Of a stretch of 19,057 bases of DNA, positions 9,184 through 19,057 are shown in pieces. Source of the stretch: Myxococcota bacterium (GTDB lineage Bacteria > Myxococcota_C > UBA6777); NCBI GenBank assembly GCA_023150835.1, contig JAKLKB010000132.1, forward strand, positions 1 through 19,057, written 5' to 3'. The notes under the pieces were generated by a model that ran no database searches, was not told the DNA's origin, and saw only the letters and a program-made list of their open reading frames with translations. A program made the position numbers and the translations under genes. Numbering within the stretch: position 1 is the stretch's first letter; each line of letters starts with the position of its first letter.

Positions 9184-10215
9184 ATGCGGCTACCCGCTCT
9201 CGAAGCTTATCCCATCGGCGAAGTGCTTGAATGCAAGCCGATCGTGGTGGGTTTGATTCATCAAACGTATCGGATCGCTTGTAGAGAAGGTGCTTATAGC
9301 TTGCAGGGACTTCACCCCAAACTTGCAAGTGACGGGATCATGGCCGATTACGAGGTCGTGAATCGTGCGCTGATCGAGCGCGGCTTGCCTGTTCCTCGGC
9401 TGGTGTGGACACGCGAGAACCAAAGCTTCTACCAAGACGAGACGGGGAAACGCTGGCGATTGACCACTTGGCTTGAAGGACGATGTGTCGAAGCTCCTCA
9501 GCACGACGAGATGGTACGTAGTGCCGCTGCTTTGTTGGGCCGATTTCACGCAAAGATGGCTGACTTCGACTACACCTTCCGATCCACCCACCCGCTTCAC
9601 AAGACCGAACACCACCTTGCACGCCTCCAAGAAGCAGCCCACACGTTTCAAGGTTCGCCGCTGTGGTCGGATATCGCAGAGATCGCCACACAAGTCCAAG
9701 CCGATATCCCCTCCTTGCTGTTGCCCCCTGAACTCCCACGTGGCGTTGTTCACGGTGATCCCAAGATCTCCAACCTGCTCTTTGATGCGGACGATCACGC
9801 CATCGCCTTGATCGATCTTGATACATGCAACCGCCACAGCGTCCTTGTCGATGTCGGTGATGCGGTGCGTTCGTGGTGTCGCCAAGGCAGCGAAGATCGC
9901 GTTCAGCCTTTTTCACTCGAACGCTTCCAAGCGCTGATCGAAGGATACGCTTCGACCTATTCTTCGCTGTCTTCGGCAGAACGGGACTTTTTGCCGCACG
10001 CAGGCCGCCTGATCACCCTCGAACTGACCGCTCGCTTTGCTACGGATTATCTCGAAGATAGCTATTTTGGTTGGGACAACCAGCGTTATCCGACCCGCCG
10101 CGCCCACAACCTCGCCCGCGCCCAAGCCATGCTCGCCCTCGCCCAAGAGATGAAAGCCCACACCGAGACCTTGGCGGCGATCGTCATCAAGGCTTTTTCT
10201 CGGAAAATCGCTTGA
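9184..10215 (+). CDS. APH/NahK-like small-molecule kinase
   Basis: The 343-residue protein has the aminoglycoside-phosphotransferase/choline-kinase fold. The catalytic loop is HGDPKISN (His190-Asp192-Asn197) and the metal-binding segment is ALIDLDT (Asp211, Asp213), followed by DVGDAVR. This form of the loop, together with the ending RYPTRRAHNLARAQAMLALA, resembles N-acetylhexosamine 1-kinase and related sugar or alcohol kinases more than antibiotic-resistance enzymes. The N-lobe has no canonical protein-kinase P-loop, as usual here. I chose the ATG at 9184 because GGAGG sits 7 nt upstream; the frame also allows 9166, which would place the ribosome-binding site inside the gene. It follows the acyl-CoA dehydrogenase by 29 bp. 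Substrate unknown; phosphorylation of a sugar or amino alcohol is inferred. Confidence 0.85.
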   Translation: MRLPALEAYPIGEVLECKPIVVGLIHQTYRIACREGAYSLQGLHPKLASDGIMADYEVVNRALIERGLPVPRLVWTRENQSFYQDETGKRWRLTTWLEGRCVEAPQHDEMVRSAAALLGRFHAKMADFDYTFRSTHPLHKTEHHLARLQEAAHTFQGSPLWSDIAEIATQVQADIPSLLLPPELPRGVVHGDPKISNLLFDADDHAIALIDLDTCNRHSVLVDVGDAVRSWCRQGSEDRVQPFSLERFQALIEGYASTYSSLSSAERDFLPHAGRLITLELTARFATDYLEDSYFGWDNQRYPTRRAHNLARAQAMLALAQEMKAHTETLAAIVIKAFSRKIA

Positions 10216-10373
10216 CAATGCGCTGCATAAGAGGCATCTCTTCTGCCGCAAATGAGGCATACTTCACCGACCGATCCACAAGCGCGATCTGTGTGTTGTT
10301 CTCGAACCATGCAAGCATGTGATCTTTTCAAGCCCACGCGGCGGCGCGGGCGATATGAGGGAGCGTTGGCGTT

Positions 10374-11912
10374 ATGGCGAAAAAGAAAAAGCTCGAAGAG
10401 ACCGAAGTCACCACCCACACAAAACAGACCAAAGTTAAATCCACCGAAACCACCGAAGACACCGAAGACACCGTCGATGCGAAAGAGGCTTCTTCGCAAG
10501 AAGAACAGCCCGGATCTGCCGCTCATTTGAAATCCCCCCATGAACACGCCCAAGAGCACGCCCAAGAGCACGCCCATGAACACGCCCAAGAGCACGCCCA
10601 TGAACACGCCCACAAACACACACAAAAACACACACAAAAACACACACAGACGAGCGCCGAAGACGCGCCGAAAAAGCACACACGCAGCAAAAAAGCCGAT
10701 CATCCGACAGATCTGATCGCAGCGGTGGTTCAAAAGGGCGAAAGCCATCTCCAACACGCCACCCAAGCCGCAGAAAAAGCCGTCAAAGCCACACAAAAAG
10801 CCTCCAAAACCATCGTAGAAGCCGCAAGCGAGGCAGGCCACCTGATCGTGGAAGCTGCAACACAAACCACAGACGCCGCACGCCACGCGCTTGAAGACGC
10901 CGCACAAGTGACGGGGGAAGCCTTGGGTGGGGCCGTCGAGGAAGCCACAAAAACCGTACGCCAAGTCGCCAACGAAGTCGTTGACAGCGCAAGCCACGCC
11001 GCACACAAAGCCAGCGAAGATCTCTCTCATGCCGCACAAGATGTCGTCAAAGCCGCACAAAAGGCCGCCAAACAACTCCAACGCAGCGCCGAAGAGATCC
11101 TCCACGAAGCCCAAGCCGCCTTGCGCGAATCCACACACAACAACCCCCCCGTGTCGCACGATCAATCCCTTGTATCGAGCAGTATCAACCCTGATCCTCG
11201 CGCTCCCGAGGTCTCGATCGTGATCCCTGTTTACAACGAAGAAGGCATCATCACTTCTTCGGTCGAGGATCTGGTTCGCCGCCTCACCGAGATGGGTTGG
11301 TCCTACGAACTGATCCTTGCGGAAAACGGTAGCCGTGACGCCACCACCGCACTTGCCAACAACCTTGCGTCTCGTTTCCCTTCGGTTCGCGTGATCCATG
11401 CAGGCGAACCCAACTACGGAAAAGCGATGCGCCTTGGAATCCTCGAATCACGCGGAACATACGTCATCTGTGACGAGATCGATCTGTGTGACACGCGCTT
11501 TTATCGCGATGCGATGGCGCTCTTGCGCAGTGATGCCGCAGACATGGTGGTGGGGAGCAAGCTGTTGTCGGGTTCGTTGGACAATCGCGGATGGCTGCGC
11601 AATACCGCAAGCCAAGTCCTCAACAATATGCTGCGCGTTGCTGTGGGCTTTGAAGGCACCGATACACACGGACTCAAAGCCTTCCGTCGCGACCGTATCC
11701 TTCGGCTTGTCGAAGCCTGCCAAGTGGACAAAGATCTGTTTGCCTCCGAACTGGTGATCCGCGTGTGGCGCTCGACTGCCCGCATCAAAGAGATCCCCCT
11801 TCAGATCGAAGAAAAACGCAAACCCAGCATCAACTTGTTCCGTCGTGTGCCAAACGTCCTCAAAAACATGGGGAAACTGGTGTGGCTTTTCCGTGTACGC
11901 GGTGATATGTGA
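10374..11912 (+). CDS. Family 2 glycosyltransferase with His-rich/Ala-rich N-terminal extension
   Basis: Residues about 278-512 form a GT-A family 2 domain: VSIVIPVYNEEG (280-291), ENGSRDAT (317-324, in place of the usual DDGSxDxT), GKAMRLGI (349-356), an acidic CDEIDLCD (366-373) where the DxD motif is expected, and DTHGLKAFRR (430-439). The closest style is dolichyl/polyprenyl-phosphate sugar transferases; there is no C-terminal membrane segment. The first about 275 residues are unusual. Residues 1-50 are Lys/Thr/Glu-rich. At 55-92 a tetrad repeat (xHAQ, xHTQ) holds 13 His in 37 residues. Residues about 110-255 are Ala-rich amphipathic helix with Glu/Lys/Gln, like LEA, phasin or apolipoprotein helices, without long hydrophobic stretches. 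GAGGGAG lies 10 nt before the ATG. Donor and acceptor are unknown. The long antisense frame over this gene is a shadow. Confidence 0.85.
   Translation: MAKKKKLEETEVTTHTKQTKVKSTETTEDTEDTVDAKEASSQEEQPGSAAHLKSPHEHAQEHAQEHAHEHAQEHAHEHAHKHTQKHTQKHTQTSAEDAPKKHTRSKKADHPTDLIAAVVQKGESHLQHATQAAEKAVKATQKASKTIVEAASEAGHLIVEAATQTTDAARHALEDAAQVTGEALGGAVEEATKTVRQVANEVVDSASHAAHKASEDLSHAAQDVVKAAQKAAKQLQRSAEEILHEAQAALRESTHNNPPVSHDQSLVSSSINPDPRAPEVSIVIPVYNEEGIITSSVEDLVRRLTEMGWSYELILAENGSRDATTALANNLASRFPSVRVIHAGEPNYGKAMRLGILESRGTYVICDEIDLCDTRFYRDAMALLRSDAADMVVGSKLLSGSLDNRGWLRNTASQVLNNMLRVAVGFEGTDTHGLKAFRRDRILRLVEACQVDKDLFASELVIRVWRSTARIKEIPLQIEEKRKPSINLFRRVPNVLKNMGKLVWLFRVRGDM
10539..10650 (+). repeat. 12-bp coding microrepeat encoding His tetrads
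   Basis: A 12-bp unit of the form GAGCACGCCCAA or CATGAACACGCC is repeated about nine times, turning into CACAAACACACA-type units at the 3' end. It encodes the (Q/H)EHA and KHTQ tetrads of the glycosyltransferase extension. A multiple-of-three unit keeps the frame when copy number changes. Confidence 0.85.
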
Positions 11913-12034: not shown

Positions 12035-13081
12035 GTGTTGTGTGCAGTAACTCCCACCACACGTACCCTCGCCATCTTGGAGATCTTGCTCTTGGAACTG
12101 GCCAGTTATTTGTGCCAACGCGCACGACTCCCTTTCCCCCCCCAACTCCAGACGCTTGCGGCCACAGAACGCCTTGCGATCGCAGCGCGCAGCGTCTACC
12201 TGCACCGACTCTTTCAGATGGGGGGCGTGCTTGCTCAATCCATCCCACAAAACGGGCATCTCCACAGCCAACGCTTGTGGGATCTCCCCCCCAAAGCCCT
12301 CGCTCTCGGACCCGATGCTTCGGCCCTTCTGCAATCCCTTGAACAGATCCTACGCAACAGACAGACCGACACGATCCCCCCACCCTCGCAAGGGGGGGAT
12401 GTCTTGTTCTACCATGCGATCACCCTGCTCTTCCTCGATCATCCTCACCCCACGCTCTCCCAACAATTGTCTCGTGTCTCTCCGTTGACTCGCCTTTGCC
12501 GCTTTCCCATTATTCCCGAACACCCGCCACTTCGGCTTCTCGATCAAGAAAGCGGCCACCCTGCCCTCACTCACGAAGAAGCCGAAGCCTTGCAACAACA
12601 CCCTGCCGTCCACTTCTTTTCGGCTTATCTCGCCGATCAGTGGTCGCTCTTCCCCCCCCCAACGCCCCAAGTCCCGCCCGAAGAACAGATCGCCCACTTG
12701 AGAACTCGGTTGGCGACGCTTTTGTTGTGGATGGAGACCGCCCCACGCACAGGCCGTTTTTCGCTTCTCAGCGTTTTTCCTTTGTGGTGGAAACGCTTAC
12801 TTTCCGAGCACTTTGTCGAAAAAGTCACGGAGATCCAAAACTTTCGTACCTACCGCTTATCCCAGCGCGAAGCGCTGGTCTTTTGCTATGCCGAATTCTT
12901 GCGCCTTGGCGAGCGCCTTACAACGATCATCGAACAATACATCACACGCCCCGGCCCTTATGGTTGGGAAGATCCCGCCGAAGTGCGTGTATTTCTAAGC
13001 GTCGCAGGTCGCCAATGGACCAGCGGTGGACTCCAACAACGCGTTCAAGAAGCCCAACACCAACTGCGCCGCAGCCTTTGA
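12035..13081 (+). CDS. Uncharacterised helical protein, first gene of MoxR-vWA cluster
   Basis: The 348-residue product has no domain I recognise. It starts at GTG (12035), the first possible start after an in-frame stop at 12026, with GAGG 6 nt upstream. The sequence looks mainly alpha-helical (LEILLLELASYLCQRARL; LRTRLATLLLWMETA) and has a Pro-rich linker around residues 208-217 (PPPTPQVPPEEQ). No signal peptide and no membrane helix beyond moderately hydrophobic patches. It lies 122 bp after the glycosyltransferase and 72 bp before the next gene, in the same direction as the MoxR, vWA and small genes. By position it would be one of the lineage-specific X-domain components of AAA-vWA ternary systems. 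That role rests on neighbourhood only; that it is a real gene is supported by base and codon use like its neighbours. Confidence 0.75.
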   Translation: MLCAVTPTTRTLAILEILLLELASYLCQRARLPFPPQLQTLAATERLAIAARSVYLHRLFQMGGVLAQSIPQNGHLHSQRLWDLPPKALALGPDASALLQSLEQILRNRQTDTIPPPSQGGDVLFYHAITLLFLDHPHPTLSQQLSRVSPLTRLCRFPIIPEHPPLRLLDQESGHPALTHEEAEALQQHPAVHFFSAYLADQWSLFPPPTPQVPPEEQIAHLRTRLATLLLWMETAPRTGRFSLLSVFPLWWKRLLSEHFVEKVTEIQNFRTYRLSQREALVFCYAEFLRLGERLTTIIEQYITRPGPYGWEDPAEVRVFLSVAGRQWTSGGLQQRVQEAQHQLRRSL

Positions 13082-13153
13082 GGACGCCAAGGTACCCAAC
13101 ACCACACCCAAAACAGCCACTTCCCCCCGCCACCACCGCATAAAGGGTTTGTT

Positions 13154-15160
13154 ATGTCGCCCAAAGCTCATTGGTATCTTTTCCCCCGCGAACCTGATCT
13201 GCGTGCCGCTTTGTCCCAAGAATCCACCGCACTTTTGCATCCCTACCAACTTTGGCGCATCCACACACCCCCTCATGCCAACTCTGCCTTGCTTTTGCGC
13301 ACCGAACAACCGCTGTCTTCAACTCCTTTCGCGACAGCGGTCTCTGTCCTCCCCCCAACGCCCGCTCCCAACGAAACCCTGCTCACCCTCACACACACCA
13401 CCCCTCCCTCCCCACCTCGAACAGTTGAGGCGGCCTTGTGGCGACAAGGCTCCTGTCTTCTTGCTGCCCTTGGAATGCAAGAGGCACGATCCACAGATCA
13501 ACTCCAAACCCTCGCATGGATCCTGTATGATCTTCCTGCACAGATGCTCCAAGAACTCGTCTCGGATCACCTCGCACTCGACAACCACGACCTGCGATGC
13601 ACCTACACCCCAACACAACGGGCTTGGCTATGGAGTCGCCGTGCCGAAAGCTTCCTGACCCTGAAATACAGCGCACGCCCCAACGTCCGCCTTTATCAGT
13701 CCTTCCAAGACGCACCACATATCTTGACTCCCCTCGGACAACGCGGCCCCTTCGCCCCCTCCCTCCCACAGGGCGAACACCTGCTTGTGCTTGAGGCGGA
13801 TGGAACGACGCGATCCCTCCAAACCTCCGAATGGTGGGCCGCAAGCGAGCACTTGCACATCCAAGATCTCCCCACACCACAGCCCACCTCTGCATTCGAT
13901 CCTCCCCCGCCCATCCGTCTCGCCCTACGTTACATCCACGCCGAACCACGCGATATCCCGCTGCTTTGGCTGCTCGAAGGCGAACCAGCCCACCCAGCCA
14001 TCGAAAGCCTCTTTTTTGAGCTAGGTATCGAAGAGCGCCGCGCCATCAGCCTCGCGATCACGCACCTCCCCGAAACGACACAGCCGCTGTTTTTCTTGCG
14101 CGATGATCGACCCACGCCCACTTCTCCGCTATTTCATGCTGATCAAGCGATCGGTTTCGTTCCTTTTCTTCCTCAAGAAGGATTCTACATCCAACACGCT
14201 TTTCGTCTGTATCCCTCTCTCCCTCCCAACGTCCTCAAAAACACCTTCCGCTTGCATTACGGGCGCTATACGATACTTCAGCCCAAAGCACACACGCCAC
14301 AACCAAGGTTATTGTGTGTGCCTCGCGAGAGCTTCCAACCCATCGAGACGTATCTCCATTACCAGATCGGCGCACACCCCGAAGAAGTTCGCCAACTCGC
14401 CCAACACACCGCCCTCGATATCCTTTTTGAACCCACTTCGCTCCCCGCCCCCTCCGCAGCACACACCCCCACCGCTGCGCCCCCGCCTCACCCCGAAGCG
14501 CCCAACGCTCCTTCACGCGCACAAGCCTCCGTAGACCTCGATCCTGCTCCGCTCGCCCCCACACGCCGCAGCGAGCAAGAAAACGCTCTTCAAAAACTCG
14601 AACAACGCTTGCGCGAACGCACGCGGCGCGGCGAACACCCCACCACCCACGAATGGATCGAACTCGCCCGCCTTTACTACCGAGAATACATTCAAAAACA
14701 AAATCAACTCGCCCTTCAAGAAGCCCTCAAAGCCATCGATCAAGTCCTCTATCTCGACCGTTGCGCGCCTGACGCCGTCCAACTCGAACGCGCCATCCTC
14801 GAAGAAACTCTCCGAACGATCGGCCTCTCTTTCTCCGAACAGATGCGATCTCTCGATGCGCACCTCCAAAGCAAAGAACCCTTGCGTATGCGTCTGGCCT
14901 TCCGACTCCGCGCACGTTTACTCCTCGAACAATACGACGGTCCAGAAGATCAACGCATCGCTTTGCGCTTGCATTTTTACCGCGACTTCGCCGCCATCGA
15001 AGACTCCTTGATGATCCGCGAACATTACATCTACGCCGAAGGAGTCGCTCTGACCCTTCAAGACGACGAACTCTACGAACGCGCACGCTTGCGATACCGC
15101 CAAGCGCTCCAAGATCAAGCACGACTCCAGCACGAGCTGCCCCTTGTCCTCTTGCCCTAA
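13154..15160 (+). CDS. Large uncharacterised protein of MoxR-vWA cluster
   Basis: The 668-residue product begins at ATG with AAGG about 7-8 nt upstream. Two parts can be seen. Residues about 1-430 form an alpha/beta region opening with HWYLFPRE, with LWRQGSCLLAALG, VFL-type core strands and LPPNVLKNTFRLHYGRYTIL near residues 356-375; no catalytic motif is evident. A Pro/Ala-rich linker (about 435-475) leads to a helical C-terminal region (about 478-668) with paired helices (ALEEALKAIDQVLYLDR-like, YERARLRYRQALQDQARLQ) that could be degenerate TPR-like repeats. This layout and its place directly before a RavA-type MoxR gene match the large X proteins of AAA-vWA ternary systems. I infer a scaffold or substrate-recognition role. 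No enzymatic activity can be claimed. Confidence 0.78.
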   Translation: MSPKAHWYLFPREPDLRAALSQESTALLHPYQLWRIHTPPHANSALLLRTEQPLSSTPFATAVSVLPPTPAPNETLLTLTHTTPPSPPRTVEAALWRQGSCLLAALGMQEARSTDQLQTLAWILYDLPAQMLQELVSDHLALDNHDLRCTYTPTQRAWLWSRRAESFLTLKYSARPNVRLYQSFQDAPHILTPLGQRGPFAPSLPQGEHLLVLEADGTTRSLQTSEWWAASEHLHIQDLPTPQPTSAFDPPPPIRLALRYIHAEPRDIPLLWLLEGEPAHPAIESLFFELGIEERRAISLAITHLPETTQPLFFLRDDRPTPTSPLFHADQAIGFVPFLPQEGFYIQHAFRLYPSLPPNVLKNTFRLHYGRYTILQPKAHTPQPRLLCVPRESFQPIETYLHYQIGAHPEEVRQLAQHTALDILFEPTSLPAPSAAHTPTAAPPPHPEAPNAPSRAQASVDLDPAPLAPTRRSEQENALQKLEQRLRERTRRGEHPTTHEWIELARLYYREYIQKQNQLALQEALKAIDQVLYLDRCAPDAVQLERAILEETLRTIGLSFSEQMRSLDAHLQSKEPLRMRLAFRLRARLLLEQYDGPEDQRIALRLHFYRDFAAIEDSLMIREHYIYAEGVALTLQDDELYERARLRYRQALQDQARLQHELPLVLLP

Positions 15161-15210
15161 ACACACCACCATACCCCGCGCAACCATGCCTAGCAGAAAG
15201 GAGACGCGAC

Positions 15211-15270
15211 GTGAAAGAATTTTTGCAAACGTCGCATACACCGCATGAATCCAACGATCTCCATCTCTGA
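15211..15270 (+). CDS. Possible 19-codon leader ORF overlapping the MoxR start
   Basis: AAGGAG lies 7 nt before a GTG at 15211, the best ribosome-binding site in this cluster. The frame runs 19 codons (VKEFLQTSHTPHESNDLHL) and stops at 15268-15270, 26 bp inside the MoxR gene in a different frame. The MoxR ATG at 15245 has no site of its own. The short ORF could couple translation to MoxR, or the true MoxR start could be the GTG with a one-base sequence error between. Either is inference. Confidence 0.3.
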   Translation: MKEFLQTSHTPHESNDLHL

Positions 15271-16207
15271 AGCCCGCCACCAACTCCGTCTGCTCGCTCG
15301 CAGCCTACAACGCGAGTTTGTAGGCCGCGAAGAAACCATCGATCTGCTCGTCCTTTGCGCCGTCGCAGGCGAACCGCTGCTCCTGATCGGCCCACCCGGC
15401 GTCGGCAAAACCGCTCTGATCAAAACCTTTGCCAAACGCATCGGACTCAAAGATCACGAACTCTTCGATTACTTAATCACCCGATTCACCGAGCCTAGCG
15501 AACTGATCGGCCCGATCGATATCCACGCCCTCCGCGAAGGTCATTACCGCAGACGCGTCCAAGGCAAACTCCCCACCTCCAAGCTCGCCTTTATCGACGA
15601 GATCTTTAAAGCCAACAGCGCCATCCTCAACACCCTCCTGAGCGTCCTCAACGAACGCTGCTATTACCAAGACGGACGCGCAGAACCCGTAGACACCGAG
15701 ATCTTTCTCGCTGCCTCCAACCGCATCGCCGACGACCCCGAACTCGAAGCCCTTCGCGACCGCTTTTTGCTCAAGGTCGAACTCCGCGAAGTAAAACGCG
15801 AACACTTTGATCCCCTGCTCCGTCAAGGCATGCTCCAAGAACTCGAACGACGGCTCCAACGCAACACTCCCCCGCTGATCCAACTCGAAACCTTTCTTCA
15901 ACTTCGGCAACACCTTGACGAAGGATTGCTCGCCACCGTCGAGCAAGATCGCGATGATCCACTCTTTCCCTCCGAGATGCGACGCTTGTTTGAGCGACTG
16001 GTGATCTCCCTCGATACCGAAGGATACGCTCGCATCAGCGATCGCGCTTTGATCAAACTCTACCGCATCATCCGCTTTCATGCGTTCCTTCTCGGTCGTG
16101 GCGAAGTCCAACACGAAGACCTGTTTTTGCTCGCCTACACCGCCAACCGACAAGACTATCTCACCCCCCTTCGCCAACGCGTCACCACGCTACTCGATCT
16201 GGCCTAA
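15245..16207 (+). CDS. MoxR/RavA-type AAA+ ATPase of ternary cluster
   Basis: The 320-residue protein is a classic MoxR ATPase: VGREE before the P-loop, Walker A GPPGVGKT (49-56), the loop LITRFTEPSELIGPID (78-92), Walker B AFIDEIFKANSAILNTLL with Asp118/Glu119, sensor 1 in AASNRI (Asn159), LRDRF for the arginine finger (Arg171 or Arg173), and a helical lid (about 200-320). The loop and Walker B wording are those of the RavA branch, whose members pair with vWA proteins to remodel targets by ATP hydrolysis. It is a full-length cytoplasmic enzyme. The ATG at 15245 is the first start after an in-frame stop at 15212 but lacks a ribosome-binding site; see the overlapping leader frame at 15211. The vWA-like gene follows 58 bp later, supporting a working pair. 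Confidence 0.95.
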   Translation: MNPTISISEARHQLRLLARSLQREFVGREETIDLLVLCAVAGEPLLLIGPPGVGKTALIKTFAKRIGLKDHELFDYLITRFTEPSELIGPIDIHALREGHYRRRVQGKLPTSKLAFIDEIFKANSAILNTLLSVLNERCYYQDGRAEPVDTEIFLAASNRIADDPELEALRDRFLLKVELREVKREHFDPLLRQGMLQELERRLQRNTPPLIQLETFLQLRQHLDEGLLATVEQDRDDPLFPSEMRRLFERLVISLDTEGYARISDRALIKLYRIIRFHAFLLGRGEVQHEDLFLLAYTANRQDYLTPLRQRVTTLLDLA

Positions 16208-16265
16208 ACTCTTGTCCTCTCTCGGTTTTGAGGCTTCACCCTCCCTCACATCAACAAGGTTTCAG

Positions 16266-17963
16266 ATGACCCACGCCACCCCACCCCACCTCTCCGTCCC
16301 CAAGATCACCATCCCGATCGCCGAAAAGCGCAACAGCCCGCACCAACGCAACTACTACGAAGAACGCGAACGCATGTACCAATGGGGCAGTCTTGCCCTG
16401 TCTTTGCGCCAAGATCGCCACGATCTCCCCACCCTCCGACGCGCTTTGCTTCTCCATCGAGAAACCATTCTACAACTACGCAAAACCCCGCCCCTTGGAC
16501 TTTTCCTCGATCTTCTTGGCATCCTCCAACGCGGCGAACAGATCTCCTTGCGCACCATCGATCACGAAGATCCTTCTCTCCAACGCGCTCTTCGCCGACA
16601 ACAAAACGATCTGCTCTGGCGCATCCTCCGATGCCACCGCTTCTTTCGCATCCAACACCTCCTCCAACAACTCCCCACAACTCCCACCACCAAAAAAACC
16701 AGCGAGATATCCGATCCCCTCTCTTTACGCGAACAAGCCCATGTCTACTTGCTTGCCCAATGGCTCCATCTGATCCAAGATCTGCTCTTTGAAACCTTTC
16801 CGCCTCACACTCTCCCTGACGCCTTTCCGCCCTATCCTCCGCCACTTTGGTGGCAACACCCCGAAGAAGCCCTACAGATCTTCGACCTCGCCCTCGCAGA
16901 ACCCGGATGGAGTCTCAAACAAGCTCACGCCATCTTCGATCGCTTTGTCCAAATCCCCGAAGAGATCCTCTTTCCCGATAGCGTCTTTTTGATCCTTCAA
17001 CACATCGAACTCATGCCCTCCAAACTCGAACGCGTCCGCTGGCAACAACTCTCCGAGATCTACACCGCTCTTCCTCCTCTTCAAACCCACCAACAGCTAA
17101 TCCGCATCCGCGATCTGGGCTACGCACAGATGCTCCTGCCTTCTCCTAGCGAGATCCCCGAAGGCGGAATCAACGGCTTGACCCACCAAGGCAAGATCGA
17201 AAGCCTCCTCCCCTCCGAACTCCTCTATTGGGAAGACTCCCCTTCAGCCCAACACATCGACCTTTTCGCGCTCCGATGGGTCGAACAAGAGCTACTGTTC
17301 TTCCAAAGAGAACAAGAATTCACCTTTACCAAACACCGCACCCTCTCGATCTGTCTCGACCTTGACCTCGGAGATGCCCGATACAAGGCCCCGAACGCAC
17401 CCGTCCCCGTCCATGCGCTGATCTTTGGCTTCCTCGCTCGCCTCTCCAACGATCTGCGCCGCCTCTGCCCCCAAGAAGTCCTCTCCCTGCGTTACCGCCT
17501 CGGCCCTGATACATGGGCCGAGGATATCGCCCTTTGGAAGCTCTTTCTCACCAGCATCGATGGCGTGGGCAGCCAAACCCACCTCTCCCTCCAACCCAAC
17601 ATCCAACACACCATCCTCCACCAACGACCATCCAGCGGAGAGTTTCGACTCCTTGTCGTCACCCCAACCACCTTGCCTCCTTACCTTCACTCCACGCTCG
17701 AACCCCCGTTCCATGCGCTTCTTTGCTTTGCACCAGCCCCCCTCCACGAACCCTCACTCTCTCCCGTCCCCCACCATCGGCTCCCTCCAACCTCCCTCCA
17801 ACCTCCTCTCCACCCCCCACGATGGCTCCTTGGCTTCTCCGAGCAGCAAGACATACAACACACCCTTGCCAACCTCCGTGATCTTCTCTTAGCTTCTATC
17901 CTACGGATCTCCCCAACTCGGGGAGCAGCATACACCCCCATGCACAGGGAGTCCCCACCATGA
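16266..17963 (+). CDS. vWA-like protein partner of MoxR, degenerate MIDAS
   Basis: The 565-residue protein has a helical N-terminal half with many Arg/Leu pairs (about 25-290), then the layout of vWA proteins encoded next to MoxR ATPases: GGINGLTHQGKIESLLPSELL at about 300-320, DLFALRWVEQELLFFQRE at 332-349, and a Rossmann-like domain from TLSICLDLDLGD (359-370) on. In working vWA domains this last strand carries DxSxS; here Asp365 is kept, but both Ser positions are Asp367 and Gly369. Strands RLLVVTP (461-467) and ALLCFAP (484-490) fit later vWA strands. A long Pro-rich segment lies at 487-520. Start: the ATG at 16266 after an AAGG, because the longer frame from 16080 lies inside the MoxR gene. 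Its stop overlaps the next ATG by 4 bp. vWA identity rests on motif pattern and neighbourhood. Confidence 0.8.
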   Translation: MTHATPPHLSVPKITIPIAEKRNSPHQRNYYEERERMYQWGSLALSLRQDRHDLPTLRRALLLHRETILQLRKTPPLGLFLDLLGILQRGEQISLRTIDHEDPSLQRALRRQQNDLLWRILRCHRFFRIQHLLQQLPTTPTTKKTSEISDPLSLREQAHVYLLAQWLHLIQDLLFETFPPHTLPDAFPPYPPPLWWQHPEEALQIFDLALAEPGWSLKQAHAIFDRFVQIPEEILFPDSVFLILQHIELMPSKLERVRWQQLSEIYTALPPLQTHQQLIRIRDLGYAQMLLPSPSEIPEGGINGLTHQGKIESLLPSELLYWEDSPSAQHIDLFALRWVEQELLFFQREQEFTFTKHRTLSICLDLDLGDARYKAPNAPVPVHALIFGFLARLSNDLRRLCPQEVLSLRYRLGPDTWAEDIALWKLFLTSIDGVGSQTHLSLQPNIQHTILHQRPSSGEFRLLVVTPTTLPPYLHSTLEPPFHALLCFAPAPLHEPSLSPVPHHRLPPTSLQPPLHPPRWLLGFSEQQDIQHTLANLRDLLLASILRISPTRGAAYTPMHRESPP

Positions 17964-18487
17964 GCAAACCTTATCGCATCCGCCTCCAAGAAACCGTCAC
18001 CGTCGCCGATCACTCGACCTTTCACATCGATCCCGTCCCCCTTGTCACACAACAAGGCTTCGAGCAGATCATGCAGCAAACACTCCAAGAACTCGGATGG
18101 AAGGCCGATTCAGAAGGACGCCTCTCGATCGCCATCGACGACAAAGAAACATGGACCTATCTCCCCGACAAGATGCAGATCATCACTTCCGTCGAAACCC
18201 AACACCAGATCAACCAAAACATCGAGTCGTGGAGTCCCGACGTCCTCGAACTAGAGGCCGAACGCATCAAGCAAGAACGCGAGCGCGAACTCCAACAACA
18301 AACCACCAACGTCCTCGAAGCCGGCCAAGAAGAACGCCGCCGACAATTCGAAACCATCGTCGCCGAGGCCACCGGACGCGCCATCAAACAAGCTGCCGAA
18401 CGGCTCGGCGATATCCAAGAGATCAGCGAAAGTCGCGGTGAAAAGGGACAATACACCCTCTCGATCACCATCCACGAACGTGAGTAA
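17960..18487 (+). CDS. Small alpha/beta plus coiled-coil protein of MoxR-vWA cluster
   Basis: The 175-residue product has no domain I can name with certainty. Residues 1-80 look alpha/beta (YRIRLQETVTVADHSTFHIDPVPLV, then a helix QGFEQIMQQTLQELGW and strands RLSIAIDD and QIITSVE). Residues about 90-150 are a Glu/Arg/Gln-rich helix likely to form a coiled coil, and the last strand is YTLSITIHERE. Its ATG overlaps the stop of the vWA gene (ATGA), with GGGAG 8 nt upstream, so translation is probably coupled and the products made in fixed ratio. Small proteins of this build occur in AAA-vWA ternary systems as accessory X domains, an assignment made from memory of the layout and not from a search. 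Cytoplasmic. A 28-nt near-copy of its 3' end lies 74 bp downstream. Confidence 0.75.
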   Translation: MSKPYRIRLQETVTVADHSTFHIDPVPLVTQQGFEQIMQQTLQELGWKADSEGRLSIAIDDKETWTYLPDKMQIITSVETQHQINQNIESWSPDVLELEAERIKQERERELQQQTTNVLEAGQEERRRQFETIVAEATGRAIKQAAERLGDIQEISESRGEKGQYTLSITIHERE

Positions 18488-18580: not shown

Positions 18581-18852
18581 GTGATCGTAAGATAGTACGT
18601 AGACGCCCGATTCTTGGGCAGCCACACCTGTCTGCCCCTACATCTTGCGTGATCGTAAGATAGCACGTAGACGCCCGATTTTTGGGCAGCCACACCTGTC
18701 TGCCCCTACATCTTGCGTGATCGTAAAATAGTACGTAGACGCCCGATTCTTGGGCAGCCACAGGGGGCTGCCCCTACATCTTGCGTGATCGTAAAATAGT
18801 ACGTAGACGCCCGATTCTTGGGCAGCCACAGGGGGCTGCCCCTACATCTTGC
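18581..18852 (-). repeat. Four head-to-tail 68-bp repeats, each with a hairpin
   Basis: Copies start at 18581, 18649, 18717 and 18785, a period of exactly 68 bp. Copies 3 and 4 are identical in the bases compared; copies 1 and 2 share other variants. On the minus strand each reads TGTAGGGGCAG, loop, CTGCCCAAGAATCGGGCG and so on. Copies 1-2 have a 6-bp stem (GGGCAG/CTGCCC), while copies 3-4 have an 8-bp stem (GGGCAGCC/GGCTGCCC). There are no unique spacers, so this is not CRISPR. It belongs to the GTAGGGGC family of 580 and 1765. Confidence 0.9.
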
Positions 18853-18909
18853 GATCACACAACAATCAACTGAAACTTGTTGCAGCATAAGCTGTGGGAC
18901 AGGTATTTT

Positions 18910-19057
18910 GGCAATGTGAGATTGCGGTGGAGGCTGTGAGACAGCCTGTTTGGCAATGTGAGATTGCGGTGGAGGCTATGAGACAGCCTGTTTGGCAATG
19001 TGAGATTGCGGTGGAGGCTATGAGACAGCCTGTTTGGCAATGTGAGATTGCGGTGGA
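18910..19057. repeat. 42-bp tandem array, continues past right edge
   Basis: Copies start at 18910, 18952 and 18994, with a fourth cut at 19057; a decayed copy lies at about 18888-18909. The unit is 42 bp (14 codons) and begins GGCAATGTGAGATTGCGGTG. Copies differ by one base (gctGtgag versus gctAtgag). One frame on each strand stays open through all copies: QCEIAVEAMRQPVW on plus and PNRLSHSLHRNLTL on minus. No ribosome-binding site supports either. Confidence 0.88.

Follow-up and report, generated by a model that had tools for sequence, protein, structure and literature searches.

The amphipathic helix of CTP:phosphocholine cytidylyltransferase alpha (CCT-alpha), a soluble transferase of membrane metabolism, regulates the enzyme and is placed after the catalytic domain, with larger hydrophobic residues than those of the helix described here. 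This 11-mer helix is listed in PMC5889406, which also characterizes the lipid-surface-binding helix of perilipin-4 (moment of 0.257, hydrophobic fraction of 0.35, nearly no aromatic residues). Apolipoproteins, synucleins, and perilipins have helices of the same 3-11 class (PMC6164224). Among glycosyltransferases, DPMS, ArnC, and GtrB are the closest described systems, and for the enzyme of P. furiosus (PfDPMS) the DAD motif places D89 in contact with the sugar and D91 with the metal, while the enzyme needs its interface helices and can dispense with its transmembrane domain (PMC5526996).

A gene with predicted features of both groups is present in the window, the whole 19,057-nucleotide stretch of Myxococcota DNA that was analyzed. 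A low-complexity extension and a GT2 glycosyltransferase domain form one fused polypeptide of 512 residues, encoded by a single frame that translates without a stop (Table 1). This agrees with a preliminary description made from the DNA letters, and the Pfam model Glycos_transf_2 matched residues 281 to 430 with 57.7 bits versus a curated cutoff of 23.3. The frame is also unbroken in a same-genus relative, a Myxococcota MAG (L013, the same locus as G001:C260), and the single frame in both genomes rules out an extension encoded by a separate gene. No convincing internal start was found; between residues 251 and 277 the sole common start codon is GTG 260, and no purine-rich site precedes it. An antisense frame of 437 amino acids (10086 to 11399, minus strand) is open in the window but was rejected because it contains a stop in L013. 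Over the helix, the two genomes differ at 34 amino acids in this antisense frame versus 9 in the sense frame; every other frame has more than 30 differences, save one antisense frame with three stops per genome. A search of Rfam returned no match.

Table 1. Coordinates of features at the glycosyltransferase locus, given as positions in the window
Feature	Coordinates	Strand	Basis
Putative ribosome-binding site, gagggag	10355..10361	+	12 bases 5' of ATG; identical in sister L013
Whole ORF, N-terminal extension and GT2 domain	10374..11912	+	512 aa; frame kept in L013
Polar Lys/Thr/Glu-rich stretch, residues 1-54, predicted disordered	10374..10535	+	pLDDT 33-47; composition
12-bp minisatellite encoding His/Ala/Gln/Glu tetrads	10537..10643	+	TRF; 28-residue gap in L013
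3-11 amphipathic helix, residues 111-253, 13 in-register hendecads	10704..11132	+	Periodicity; helix in models; dN/dS 0.08
Pro/Ser/Asn linker, residues 256-277	11139..11204	+	Low pLDDT, 257-272
GT2 domain, DPMS/ArnC/GtrB type, residues 278-512; invariant E368-I-D370 at DxD site	11205..11909	+	Pfam, structure model, alignment
Basic amphipathic C-terminal helix RVPNVLKN..KL, residues 486-510, conserved	11829..11903	+	Alignment, model, moment
Downstream cluster: 348-aa protein, fvmX7-type 668-aa protein (by orthologues), bpMoxR, ivWA, fvmX5	12035..18487	+	Gene order, orthologue matches

The predicted structure places the catalytic domain among GT2 enzymes of DPMS-like fold and in no narrower class. 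Polyprenyl-phosphate glycosyltransferases were the first matches to the model, and the best was the PfDPMS catalytic domain (PDB 5mlz; Z of 25.3, 2.6 A over 225 residues), a match that spans nearly exactly the part preceding the DPMS transmembrane helices. The window protein thus resembles DPMS, ArnC, and GtrB in its predicted GT-A catalytic-domain fold and in an amphipathic helix after the catalytic core. It differs from them in having no transmembrane domain, in its 277-residue N-terminal extension, in an identity of about 20%, and in reading EIDLC where DPMS reads DADLQ. No transmembrane helix was found in any orthologue (maximum 19-residue Kyte-Doolittle mean of 1.53). The DxD motif of the DPMS/ArnC/GtrB group was replaced by E-I-D in 35 of 35 aligned sequences. 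Because E368-I-D370 aligns to the DAD of PfDPMS, the Asp that is retained is the counterpart of metal-binding D91, and the position that faces the sugar has become Glu family-wide. Across loci L011 to L047, the sites equivalent to window residues 317 to 320 and 366 to 373 mostly read ENGS and (D)EIDLCD, replacing the usual DDGS and DxD, a change that spans the whole myxobacterial GT2 subfamily. The C-terminal helix at residues 486 to 510 has a charge of +4, is positioned as the DPMS interface helix is, and is probably a membrane-interface helix itself. The catalytic model is matched as well by soluble glycosyltransferases, the glucosyl- and mannosyl-phosphoglycerate synthases (Z of 18 to 20), which leaves a lipid acceptor uncertain.

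The distribution of the extension was compared across 37 related loci, including L013, and five genomes of the phylum. All five genomes encode the glycosyltransferase and keep the genes downstream of it, and the extension occurs only in the two genomes of this genus. In the other 36 loci the frame upstream of the glycosyltransferase domain is short or holds no similar sequence; the G003 protein begins about 45 residues ahead of the domain, and those of G002 and G004 about 20 to 25. The preliminary description had held that orthologues beginning near residue 275 with a ribosome-binding site of their own, or a broken frame in relatives, would refute it. Outside the genus, orthologues do begin close to the domain, with between a few and a few tens of residues ahead of it, and the family as a whole therefore lacks the extension, while within the genus the frame is unbroken and under selection. 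The build that it had called undescribed is real, as a lineage-specific module known from two genomes; the enzyme family that carries it is an ordinary one, not a new one.

Three same-family genomes retain the downstream genes and one of them, G003, the upstream genes as well, indicating that an old gene gained the extension recently. The extension was thus added in place, onto a gene that earlier had a short polar tail. A synteny break was rejected as the origin, since G003 has the same upstream acyl-CoA dehydrogenase and APH genes, as was a mobile or duplicated segment, since neither protein nor DNA searches of the five phylum genomes gave a second copy. Whatever else matched the extension in these genomes was a repeat or a weak compositional match, and one apparent paralogue of the helix (G000:C237) proved to be a tandem-repeat frame.

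Systems of the vWA-MoxR ternary type are candidate conflict systems, and glycosyltransferase domains are among their associated effectors (PMC7159879). The glycosyltransferase gene heads a cluster of such genes, conserved in the five phylum genomes, with fvmX5 absent from view in some of them. In G004 the glycosyltransferase stop and the start of the next gene share a four-base overlap. The 348-residue product encoded downstream had no Pfam match, and there is no FtsH gene in the window, whose end is the contig end. The suggested tie between glycosyltransferase and vWA-MoxR system is one of gene order alone. Near both contig ends there are tandem arrays, at 98 to 264 (66-base units), 18581 to 18853 (68-base units), and 18907 to 19057 (42-base units).

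Of the parts of the extension, the helix has the most regular sequence. Hydrophobicity over residues 111 to 255 gave a Fourier peak at 98.0 to 98.5 degrees, the 3-11 value (11 residues in three turns); versus shuffles of the same residues, z scores were 9.5 to 11. At a length of 121 amino acids the amplitude was 5.15; of 490 long frames from the retrieved loci, the highest-scoring unrelated one reached 3.22. When the sequence is stacked by elevens, positions 0, 3, 4, 7, and 10 are nonpolar across 13 repeats, and the phase from segment to segment stays on one side throughout, with a slow drift between -5 and -73 degrees. No Lys, Arg, Asp, or Glu falls within 60 degrees of the nonpolar direction, and acidic and basic residues are mixed on the far side. 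This periodicity, together with segregated polar and nonpolar faces, defines a 3-11 amphipathic helix, in line with the Ala-rich, lipid- or polymer-coating type of helix first proposed. The mean moment is 0.346 (Fauchere-Pliska scale, 33-residue windows, so that comparison with the published perilipin-4 value is approximate), the hydrophobic fraction is about 0.43, there are no aromatic residues, and the net charge is -7.

Structure predictions agree on a long helix with one interruption. The full-length AlphaFold model has helices at 111 to 180 and 182 to 256 (pLDDT of 54 to 73 in blocks of ten), and a model of the helix by itself has a mean pLDDT of 81 and a break at the same place, 181. The extension had no Foldseek match to solved folds at E below 0.01, and its sequence matched designed or helical proteins weakly at best. 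For this protein, PADLOC returned a weak match to a helix of ZorA and nothing else.

Substitutions between the window and L013 indicate that the helix is maintained as protein. Of the 42 nucleotide differences over residues 107 to 255, 32 fall at third codon positions, and 9 amino acids differ versus a neutral expectation of 28.5 +/- 2.7; none of 10,000 simulations gave a value as low. The resulting dN/dS values, which come from one genome pair, are 0.08 for the helix and 0.02 for the glycosyltransferase domain, and such purifying selection shows the extension to be functional coding sequence. The sister retains the periodicity despite substitutions at nonpolar positions (I/L, V/A, V/I, and S/A).

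The His run that first drew attention is the least conserved part of the protein despite being the most striking to look at; it varies and probably matters little. There are 13 His within the 37 residues from 56 to 92, in the tetrad rhythm originally noted, encoded by the 12-bp tandem array. In L013, 28 residues, most of the tract, are missing, a gap that repeat collapse in the MAG assembly may have caused; dN/dS over residues 1 to 107 is 0.32. The preliminary description had proposed a peripheral tether joined to metal binding. The amphipathic helix and the glycosyltransferase fold of membrane-lipid-linked enzymes fit the tether, and the metal-binding part is weakened because the His residues are encoded by a minisatellite that varies and of which little is left in the sister; conservation thus lends metal binding no support here. 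Near position 1500 of L068, L069, and L070, from the same genus, there are His-rich tandem repeats similar in DNA to the glycosyltransferase repeat. By reading of their sequences they belong to a CobW-like GTPase, a permease, and a LarC-like protein, plausible metal proteins, and the genus therefore does produce such tracts.

Our tentative preference is for the helix as a low-affinity lipid-surface tether, analogous to that of CCT-alpha or perilipin-4. A GT2 enzyme without a transmembrane helix of its own has gained, in one genus, an N-terminal module in which a flexible linker joins the 3-11 amphipathic helix of 143 residues, itself preceded by a disordered leader, to the catalytic domain. 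In the cytosol the helix would be unfolded or loosely helical; it would then lie along a lipid surface, the inner membrane or possibly a storage granule, where many weak Ala, Val, and Leu contacts could lengthen the stay of the catalytic domain where a lipid-phosphate acceptor sits. The likeness in mode would be to the 11-mer helix of CCT-alpha, an enzyme unrelated to the window protein in kind and lineage. The fused frame, selection, periodicity, predicted helix and fold, lack of a transmembrane helix, and restriction to one lineage are observed; lipid binding, a lipid acceptor, and an effect on activity are inferred. The helix shares 11-residue periodicity with those of perilipin-4, alpha-synuclein, and apolipoproteins, and with perilipin-4 also weak hydrophobicity, near absence of aromatics, and great length (PMC6164224, PMC5889406), whereas no sequence relationship to these proteins was detected and none of them is an enzyme. 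Several observations count against a tether: the helix is only weakly hydrophobic, its net negative charge does not favor anionic bacterial membranes, orthologues manage without it, and its hydrophobic pattern is just as well suited to a coiled coil of hendecads.

The main rival, such a coiled coil that oligomerizes the enzyme, or docks it on a coiled-coil partner such as a protein of the adjacent vWA-MoxR system, is rather unlikely by our estimate. Nonpolar positions 0, 3, 4, and 7 correspond to a, d, e, and h of hendecad coiled coils, entry titles describe tetramer and octamer volumes for a GtrB relative, and the matches to designed helical bundles and to the helical part of ZorA, like the long helical hairpins and coiled coils among the fold matches, point the same way, as does the break near 181 in the helix-only model. 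All of these matches are weak, however (best E of 0.001 for ZorA and 0.04 by fold), the core positions are mostly Ala with few Leu or Ile, and Gly-Gly 185-186, right after the break, is Asn-Glu in the sister, so that a tight hairpin turn is not conserved. Because tether and coiled coil share a periodicity, sequence cannot separate them; the tether is favored because the helix is like coating helices in its segregated faces, its length, and its lack of aromatics, and also because this enzyme class works at membranes. The helix is probably an extra anchor or an assembly rod.

Other explanations are less probable. Low-complexity accretion by repeat expansion, with little functional importance, would fit the restriction to one genus, the minisatellite and other simple repeats, and the near loss of the His part in the sister, but is improbable given purifying selection on the helix and its preserved register; it is largely refuted for residues 107 to 255, not for residues 1 to 106. 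It is slightly more improbable still that the helix is a LEA-like protective or entropic tail that folds on drying or crowding and shields enzyme or membrane without targeting. Group-3 LEA proteins such as DosH of Deinococcus share its 11-mer repeats, and their consensus shares its nonpolar spacing (gaps of 1, 3, 4, and 3; PMC10295645), but LEA_4 (PF02987) had no match in the protein or its own genome, consensus positions 6 and 8, basic in LEA proteins, are Ala or mixed here, and attachment to a single enzyme would be unusual. A phasin-like module placing the enzyme on polyhydroxyalkanoate granules is very improbable, even with a PhaC_N match above cutoff in the same genome. The Phasin_2 (PF09361) match of 18.5 bits is below the cutoff of 24.9, none of the five genomes has one above it, control genomes also give a weak signal, and the GT2 enzyme has no obvious metabolic link to PHA. 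The phasin or LEA membership first suggested was thus not upheld.

Beyond a tether in general, a more specific proposal is that a genuine perilipin- or CCT-like 3-11 helix, recently evolved on a conserved compact enzyme within a vWA-MoxR operon, recruits a bacterial glycosyltransferase, which we consider somewhat doubtful. If true, it would offer a natural before-and-after case of membrane-surface targeting added to an enzyme and could connect a vWA-MoxR conflict system with lipid-carrier glycosylation. Because relatives with and without the module occur in conserved surroundings, the effect of adding the helix is directly testable on a little-changed enzyme. The best descriptions of long 3-11 helices concern eukaryotic proteins of lipid droplets, lipoproteins, and desiccation, a picture that an example on a bacterial enzyme would widen. 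Another helix addition was observed in an unrelated genome (G037), where a SecG-like protein (L050, 1291 to 1839) has a C-terminal tail of roughly 90 residues, rich in Ala, Lys, Glu, and Val, with an 11-mer-like pattern.
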